Part shown: one piece after another, positions 16,504 through 17,255 of the stretch
How the letters are laid out: each line of letters starts with the position of its first letter
How positions within the stretch are numbered: the stretch's first letter is position 1
From: Halovenus sp.
GTDB taxonomy: Archaea; Halobacteriota; Halobacteria; Halobacteriales; Haloarculaceae
Direction of reading: 5' to 3'
NCBI GenBank assembly: GCA_028275145.1
Contig: JAQCNG010000309.1
Location: forward strand, 1-27,431
Length of the DNA stretch: 27,431 bases
The notes under the pieces: generated by a model
Database searches by the model: none
Seen by the model: only the letters and a program-made list of their open reading frames with translations
Told to the model about the DNA's origin: nothing
Translations under genes and position numbers: made by a program

Positions 16504-16578
16504 GGGCGCTTAGCTCAGCTTGGACAGAGCACTTGGCTTCGGACCAAGATGTCGCGGGTTCAAATCCTGCAGCGCCCA
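16504..16578 (+). tRNA. tRNA-Arg, anticodon TCG
   Basis: A complete 75-nt cloverleaf. The acceptor stem GGGCGCT (16504-16510) pairs with AGCGCCC (16571-16577) and discriminator A is at 16578. The D arm contains TTAGCTCAG...GAGC, the anticodon arm is CTTGG-CTTCGGA-CCAAG with anticodon TCG (reads CGA and probably other CGN), and the T arm is GCGGG-TTCAAAT-CCTGC. No CCA is encoded and there is no intron. Its own TATA box lies upstream. Confidence 0.96.
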
Positions 16579-16622: not shown

Positions 16623-16632
16623 TTTATATATT
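16623..16632 (+). promoter_or_regulatory. TATA box of the candidate hairpin RNA
   Basis: TTTATATATT is the best TATA match near the tRNA. It lies about 26 nt before the 5' end of the outer stem of the folded element (16657), where transcription would be expected to begin. It is 44 bp after the tRNA end and there is no open reading frame with coding character downstream that would explain it. Confidence 0.55.
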
Positions 16633-16653
16633 CACAGAATTTCGAGGCGGATG

Positions 16654-16810
16654 CCACGGGGTCGTACGGAAATCTCCGATTTCCGTGATGAACGTTGGAC
16701 AACGTCCAACGAACCTGCGAGCGGGCGATGCCCGCGAGCAGCTGACGAGAGACGAAGTCTCTCGAACCACGTGACCCCGAGGCAGTTGACTCTACCGGCA
16801 CTACATTTTT
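16654..16810 (+). ncRNA. Candidate structured RNA with four perfect triloop hairpins
   Basis: No known family is recognised. An outer stem, CGGGGTC (16657-16663) with GACCCCG (16773-16779), encloses four hairpins in a row. HP1: 9 bp, 16666-16674 with 16678-16686, loop TCC. HP2: 8 bp, 16693-16700 with 16704-16711, loop AAC. HP3: 6 bp, 16721-16726 with 16730-16735, loop GAT, extended by symmetrical GA/GA (16719-16720, 16736-16737) and a further 4 bp (16715-16718 with 16738-16741). HP4: 8 bp, 16746-16753 with 16757-16764, loop GAA. All stems are perfect and all loops have three bases, giving a five-way junction of about 123 nt. A TATA box (16623-16632) lies at the expected distance and TTTTT (16806-16810) could end the transcript. 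Ends are approximate. A cruciform-forming DNA element or decayed mobile repeat is an alternative. Confidence 0.6.
16806..16810 (+). terminator. T-run after the hairpin RNA
   Basis: TTTTT, followed by GTTG and further T-rich sequence, about 27 nt after the outer stem closes. Archaeal terminators are often simple T-runs, so this could end the candidate RNA. Confidence 0.35.
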
Positions 16811-16879
16811 GTTGTATCTTGATTGTATTAATCCACCGATCGTCGTCAGTGCGTGGGTTCCGGCTGTCGTACCGACGGA

Positions 16880-17255
16880 TGAGAGTCCGGCAGGTGGTCC
16901 CCCGAACGATAACAAGGAGTCCAGCGGGTCCTGCAGGTCGTCCCGGGGGGACAGCACCGACTCGTAGCGCTCGGCTTTCTCGGTCGCAAGCGCCCGCAAC
17001 ACCCACGCGAGCGCCGCCGGGGTAATATCTCCACGGTGGTCCCACGGGTCACCCACGTCGACCACACCGAACACGACATCGACACCGTCGTCACGGAACA
17101 CGCGACCTGCGCGGGTTGTCACCGACCGACCGCGCCGAGCGCCTCGTCGACTGTGCGACCCCGGCGTTCCGGTCCCAGCTCCGCGGCTATCTTGAGGACG
17201 CCCGCAGGGAGAGGACAGGTTCCGTACGACCCCGAGGCCGCGCTCGACTGATGGC
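16880..17255 (-). pseudogene. Frameshifted remnant of an unidentified gene
   Basis: The minus strand has coding-like codon use in two adjacent frames. One frame reads LPAGVLKIAAELGPERRGRTVDEALGAVGR and then meets a TGA. The neighbouring frame takes over as SVTTRAGRVFRDDGVDVVFGV and continues through VGDPWDHRGDITPAALAWVLRALATEKAERY to about 16900. The switch falls in the repeated ACCGACCGACCG tract (17121-17132), a plausible slippage site. The family is not recognised and no reliable start is seen; downstream, coding character fades before the candidate RNA. The 751-bp gap between tRNA-Arg and the next gene therefore holds the candidate RNA and this remnant, and nothing else I can support. Confidence 0.35.

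Follow-up and report, generated by a model that had tools for sequence, protein, structure and literature searches.

A cluster of triloop hairpins in the 27,431-nucleotide stretch of Halovenus sp. DNA that we analysed (the window) is very probably a terminal-only relic of an IS200/IS605-type transposon, in which the left end has become fused to the right end and the genes have been lost. The initial annotation had seen in this feature a new class of structured RNA. That lead was false, and its place is taken by a transposon end that is widespread among haloarchaea. The features of the window copy and its surroundings are collected in Table 1.

Table 1. Features of the window copy and its flanks (window positions).
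Feature	Position	Strand	Remarks
tRNA-Arg (TCG)	16504..16578	+	Neighbour by chance
TATA-like stretch	16623..16632	+	Left flank; resident DNA, not part of the element
Left target site TTCAC	16631..16635	+	Outside the element, in the 5' flank; fits guide GGA by the family rule
Probable terminal-only IS200/IS605-type element, 155 bp	16636..16790	+	Boundaries by comparison of copies
Left guide trimer GGA	16649..16651	+	Element +14 to +16; pairs with target -3 and -4
Outer stem, 5' arm	16654..16663	+	Fold and covarying copies
Hairpin 1	16666..16686	+	9 bp stem, three-base loop; in two- and four-hairpin forms
Hairpin 2	16693..16711	+	8 bp stem, three-base loop; four-hairpin form only
Hairpin 3	16715..16741	+	GA/GA internal loop, three-base loop; four-hairpin form only
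Hairpin 4	16746..16764	+	8 bp stem, three-base loop; in two- and four-hairpin forms
Outer stem, 3' arm	16773..16782	+	A.A mismatch 16656/16780, as expected of a left/right chimera
Right cleavage site TTGAC	16786..16790	+	TTCAC in most copies seen
Right flank	16791..16810	+	Would be the omega-RNA guide if the copy is transcribed

Triloop hairpins cluster within a closed outer stem

We confirmed, position by position, the four perfect triloop hairpins and the enclosing outer stem that had been described for the window. In hairpin 3, a 6 bp stem (16721-16735) is followed across the GA/GA loop by a further 4 bp (16715-16718 with 16738-16741). The core of the outer stem (16657-16663 with 16773-16779) extends outward to 16654/16782 through a single A.A mismatch.

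As RNA, positions 16640-16820 fold at -81.2 kcal/mol (z -6.1), and as DNA, positions 16636-16790 give a z of -6.8; in neither case was any of 200 dinucleotide shuffles as good. The plus strand of the window contains 18 perfect triloop hairpins with stems of at least 6 bp, a total that is not unusual (mean 11.6 and maximum 19 in shuffles). Four of these 18 lie together in a 99-bp part of the element, and they include the longest triloop stems in the window (9, 8 and 8 bp), with one other 8-bp stem elsewhere. The fold energy alone is unexceptional, at -74.3 here against a mean of -56.9 (s.d. 9.5) over 728 segments of 150 bases, the best eight of which fold at -77.8 or lower. It is thus the clustering of the hairpins that is remarkable, and not the energy in so GC-rich a window. 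Mechanically called open reading frames cross the hairpin region on both strands. By eye, TCAC at the right end has a possible partner in a GTGA of the junction, which would give a pseudoknot.

The module is dispersed among haloarchaea and its stems covary

A search of the host genome with the hairpin region returned the window copy, seven near-full or long matches and many partial ones. In six genomes, the matches at E 0.001 or better numbered between 3 and 36 per genome. The dispersed copies have different flanks. Many of the partial matches are a left piece joined directly to a right piece, giving a short form without hairpins 2 and 3. When at most 16 candidates were scored per genome, a covariance model of the long form matched 119 of 195 genomes of the order at E 1e-4 or better; many of these matches have the length of the short form. 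Related sequences also occur in Halorhabdus salina and H. amylolytica records and in eleven haloarchaeal plasmid records, and a Natribaculum plasmid carries a four-hairpin copy whose hairpins 2 and 3 differ. The proportions of long and short forms are biased, because the copies were gathered with the four-hairpin window sequence or its model. The presence of copies across the host genome and its relatives makes the feature a dispersed repeat and contradicts the single-locus RNA of the initial annotation. A phage or virus origin was dropped, as searches of viral_contigs (one exact pattern) and of phage records gave no match.

The fold is conserved among the copies. In an alignment of 39 distinct long copies, made mostly of fused copies (defined below) and scored against the structure of the window row, 91.5% of cells pair and 15 of the 45 pairs have changed on both sides (80 cells), with compensatory pairs in all five helices (the outer stem and hairpins 1-4). 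No shuffle out of 500 attained any of the covariation measures, and pairing fell to 28-44% when the partners were shifted by 1 to 3 columns. The pairing is imperfect, the first pair of hairpin 1 being unpaired in 21 of the 39 rows. RNAalifold gave a weaker consensus for alignment A1; it has 24 pairs and does not show hairpins 1 and 2 in the form drawn here, probably owing to gaps in hairpin 1. Covariation of this kind cannot separate RNA from single-stranded DNA. In Rfam, no family came near its gathering score, the sole match (E 6.7) reaching 12.1 bits against a cut-off of 39.8.

Genome G015, which like G003 belongs to the same genus as the window's genome, contains a four-hairpin copy (L085:1478-1625) in which hairpin 2 is replaced by sequence of the hairpin-4 type; this suggests gene conversion or duplication among the hairpins. 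In hairpins 1 and 4 of alignment A1, inspected by eye, the triloops are often reverse complements between copies (GAA/TTC, TCC/GGA) with unchanged stems, as if the tips of the hairpins had become inverted. On the minus strand of the window, some 430 bp away from the element, 19 bases (17220-17238) match the left arm of the module (95% to the window copy, 100% to L116) and are perhaps a truncated remnant. In Natronorubrum bangense (L157:2593-2641), the TTCAC end of one element is directly the start of another short element-like stretch, which ends in TTCAC as well; these may be nested or tandem copies. Locus L075 (G000:C17) has, at about position 2001, a different right-end-like sequence ending GGGGTAGTTCAC; it has the hairpin-3 sequence CGAGCGGGCGATGCCCGCGAG too, and the codons before the right-end-like sequence read, by eye, KRVVESGSP.

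The module forms the ends of tnpB elements

All three of the tested frames that adjoin the module carry OrfB_IS605 and Cas12f1-like TNB domains (PF01385, PF07282), which we take to be hallmarks of TnpB. At loci L069, L104 and L115, the tnpB frame runs into the right module and another module precedes the gene. At L260 and L261, a tnpB-type frame (PF07282) is followed by the module, and a Y1 tnpA (PF01797) is oriented divergently from this frame. In a scan of 28 loci around tnpA with the model (L136-L141, L222, L223 and L248-L267, L138 being the same place as L222), these two loci scored 70.7 and 62.9 bits, respectively, with the right geometry. L253 scored 37.3 bits about 1.4 kb from tnpA, and the remaining loci gave less than 28 bits or no match. 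That the module sits at the ends of tnpB elements, two of them also with tnpA, identifies it as an IS200/IS605 end. The host genome contains both TnpA and TnpB domains; its two tnpA loci, one of which lies at a contig end, have no such module, and two TnpB queries gave no match near the window copy.

The copies fall into three classes. Left-full copies combine the left terminus with an internal right side, right-full copies combine a tnpB side with the right terminus, and fused copies, to which the window copy belongs, have both termini and no gene. One tnpB element of G015 (L081:1679-3250) has a four-hairpin left module and a right module collapsed to outer-stem remnants (CCCCAGAGCTTGACCCCGGGG).

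From this arrangement we infer a parent element in which tnpB, sometimes with tnpA, would lie between two ends that each carry the same folded module, composed of a guide trimer, an outer stem and two or four triloop hairpins. Such elements would move as single strands, with the Y1 TnpA binding the folded ends and the guide bases setting the cleavage and target sites by base pairing.

Guide trimers match target and cleavage sites

IS608 inserts precisely on the 3' side of TTAC; guide bases located 5' of the hairpin foot pair with this target, +16 with -3 and +17 with -4 (PMC5934647). In the module, the corresponding pairs are +15 with -3 and +16 with -4. Five target variants (TCTAC, TTTAC, TGTAC, TTCAC and TCTGC) coexist in this one family, and the targets occur with matching guides: TCTAC with GAG, TTTAC with GAA, TGTAC with GAC and TTCAC with GGA. 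Among the 57 left ends listed, from which rows without a plausible left target are excluded, 54 match at both positions, compared with at most 37 in shuffled pairings; with the omitted L131 (TCGAC/GAG, a miss) the count becomes 54 of 58. Further genomes yielded 60 copies, 39 of them with a TNNAC target, of which 35 match (shuffle mean 33.2, maximum 36); this adds little, because the targets show almost no variety.

The three classes were compared in 105 rows parsed by text pattern from 138 sequences, leaving out 10 rows that belong to none of them. The left target is matched in 19 of 19 left-full rows (18 of 18 without one spurious parse), and the right site in 20 of 20 right-full rows, a result attained in 8 of 20,000 shuffles (mean 14.7). 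The right-end pairs are GGA or TGA with TTCA (17 rows), GAA with TTTAC (2) and ACA with TTGAC (1), so the test depends on the three sites other than TTCA. Among the 56 fused rows, 51 match the left target and none the right site (51 of 55 and 0 of 55 without a spurious row). The spurious rows are the second of the two given by each of L093 and L189. Sequences that did not parse, among them L156, L112, L199 and L212, were excluded; by eye, the right ends of L112, L199 and L212 fit the guide rule. An AG following the trimer was the main criterion for internal left sides, and L209, which adjoins tnpB and is the same place as L260, entered by its trimer. Some copies are duplicates by descent, L116/L118 and L117/L122 each sharing a flank. 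Without L209, L118 and L122, the counts are 19 of 19 for left-full rows, 19 of 19 for right-full rows, and 49 of 54 (left) and 0 of 54 (right) for fused rows. The left rule is broken by four real fused copies (L094, L123, L171 and L210) and, by eye, by the Natribaculum copy L156.

Because the target stays behind when an element moves, common descent does not readily explain the left matches. The guide bases of left-full and right-full rows are complementary to the cleavage or target site, as in IS200/IS605 elements, and the family provides a natural-variation test of target choice by base pairing, with several targets each accompanied by a matching guide. In the window copy, the left guide GGA fits TTCAC and the right site TTGAC has no fitting guide; the trimer ACA, the partner of TTGAC in tnpB-side right ends (L216, L199), is absent.

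Origin and mobility of the fused copies

Empty counterparts were found for two fused sister copies in genome G052. L106 interrupts a reading frame that, when joined at TCTAC, aligns ungapped to three relatives (identities 36/47, 29/39 and 30/42), showing insertion without target duplication. The joined peptide has matches in 22 of 57 genomes of the family, including two partial matches in G052 itself. Among six genomes of its genus, the joined DNA aligns across the junction (query base 110) in G241, while G052 gives two separate pieces. The second copy, L107, is embedded in a repeat of about 80 bp (query 311-393, junction at 370), dozens of matches to which occur in G020 and G246, both of the genus of G052; copies there align across the junction. 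For the window's own site, the loci compared gave no alignable empty counterpart, the relatives aligning over the tRNA only and L014 up to 16619.

The outer stem of fused copies has features of a chimera. At the position of 16656/16780, 37 of 39 full-end rows have a Watson-Crick pair, compared with 39 of 56 fused rows (Fisher p 0.003, counting the spurious rows). In rows with an A in the left arm, full ends pair in 4 of 4 (three loci) and fused copies in 0 of 8 (one spurious, the window included), as expected if the left half of one module had been linked to the other module's right half. Such a mismatch can also come from plain decay.

We propose that the parent of the window copy inserted 3' of TTCAC and that its left and right modules, being direct repeats, later recombined with loss of the genes. 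This deletion would have left the left guide and target together with the right terminus, while the right guide was lost. In Haloquadratum, terminal-only IS605-type elements have likewise been ascribed to repeat-mediated deletion of the core (PMC3119063). Among the loci compared, we found no allelic pair, in which one genome would carry the full element and another genome a fused copy at the corresponding site. L078 and L095 were rejected as such a pair, as only their right flank is common and the place of the left end in L095 is an assembly gap.

The fused copies might instead be active miniature elements, the 155-bp unit being mobilised as it is by TnpA acting in trans. Outside hairpins 2-3, the window copy hardly differs from L068, yet the two occupy different sites, as do the similar fused copies L105, L106, L107 and L114, a pattern that transposition of the fused form would explain as well. 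In Haloquadratum, moreover, one element has six strain-specific insertions that are all terminal-only, and the authors suggest that they may be mobilisable (PMC3119063). We nevertheless consider this explanation unlikely, because a guide that fits the right cleavage site is present in every right-full row and in no fused row. In addition, a fused copy retains one outer structure, whereas IS608 TnpA binds one palindrome per end (PMC5934647). We infer that fused copies are unable to position the right end for excision and are relics, comparable to solo LTRs; the window copy, having lost its right guide, has probably also lost the ability to excise. Possession of the left guide alone would then be the rule that marks fused relics, and it predicts that they cannot excise.

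Flanking signals and a possible guide RNA

The TATA box and T-run that had been read as transcription signals of the feature both exist, the latter at 16806-16810, but the box is flanking DNA, because relatives have it without the element. A TATA-like box (TTTATAAA- or CTTATAAA-like) follows the same tRNA-Arg, without the element, at 5 of 21 loci of relatives, L016 and L024 being the most alike, with others at L015, L032 and L034, 30-50 bp after the tRNA. The box after tRNA-Arg(TCG) is perhaps the promoter of something else in several haloarchaea. In the set of 36 copies with both flanks, a TATA-like hexamer within the 40 bases upstream of the target is unique to the window copy, and TTTTT within the first 30 bases of the right flank is shared by the window copy and L084 alone. 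The 20-base stretch that follows the element has no second match (at most 3 mismatches) in 18 genomes of the genus. The position downstream of a tRNA-Arg is true of the window but is not conserved; a tRNA is present at only 3 of 49 other loci (Arg, Pro and Lys), which rules out a tRNA-associated element.

A single-locus structured RNA gene tied to the tRNA-Arg would account for the strong fold, the TATA box and the T-run, but it is hardly credible in the face of the dispersed copies, the transposon-end identity, the lack of a tRNA link and the occurrence of the TATA box elsewhere without the element. What survives of the undescribed structured RNA is its architecture, its covariation and the lack of an Rfam family; the single-locus gene with its own promoter does not. 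Any RNA made from the window copy would most likely be a scaffold of the TnpB guide RNA (omega RNA), a known kind. As RNA, the right-end module would occupy the position of the omega-RNA scaffold, and at right ends with tnpB it lies directly before the flank that would supply the guide, a likeness to the published omega RNA in position only (PMC8612924). For IS608 and ISDra2, TnpB together with the right-end omega RNA has been proposed to protect the donor site (PMC5934647, PMC8612924).

This raises the possibility that fused copies are stand-alone omega-RNA genes, which would be kept because TnpB supplied from elsewhere would load their transcript and cut chromosome copies free of the insertion. 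TnpB guides lie in the flank next to the right end (PMC8612924), 13 TnpB-domain matches occur in the host genome, and the fold is conserved in an alignment made mostly of fused copies. The window copy also has a resident TATA box upstream and a T-run 20 bases into its flank, yet both look accidental when set against the other copies, and the covariation may simply reflect constraint on the parents. We regard this explanation as improbable. The wider idea that gene-less fused copies form a reservoir of omega-RNA genes that serve TnpB in trans, each guarding its own site, is a speculation to which we attach quite a low probability. Were it true, relics unable to jump would still be kept, and the window copy, with its resident TATA box and a T-run at the close of its 20-base flank, would be a case in point.

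Comparison with known systems

As a probable terminal-only transposon relic, the window element closely resembles the PATEs of Haloquadratum walsbyi (Dyall-Smith et al. 2011, PMC3119063). Like them, it is short and has no transposase gene, its 155 bp being too short to encode one. It shares with IS605-type transposons the near-terminal palindromes that relate PATEs to these elements, the terminal-only versions of PATEs are attributed to repeat-mediated core deletion, the route proposed here, and PATEs insert without target duplication, as seen here for L106. In the parts of that paper compared here, the terminal-only form measures 52 bp, compared with 155 bp for the window element (about 100 bp for the two-hairpin form), which has a branched two- or four-hairpin fold. 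Loss of the right guide is not mentioned for PATEs in those parts.

As in IS608 and ISDra2, the target 5' of the left end stays in the flank, and the guide lies 5' of the foot of the structure and pairs at -3 and -4 (PMC5934647, PMC8612924). The guide positions are +16 and +17 in IS608 and +15 and +16 in the module (PMC5934647), and the subterminal imperfect palindrome of IS608, with a small second hairpin at the left end, contrasts with the multibranched junction of the module. Like the TnpB omega RNA (reRNA), the right-end module lies over or just after the 3' end of tnpB, next to the flank that would be the guide (PMC8612924). The sotRNAs of H. salinarum (PMC12558985) resemble it by position, and Rfam has no match for the module.

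A search of the open literature in general terms found no description of the four-hairpin module or of the missing right guide. PATEs and omega RNAs are already known; what appears to be new here is the four-hairpin form and the missing right guide. Branched modules of two or four hairpins would be unusual scaffolds for TnpB guide RNAs.
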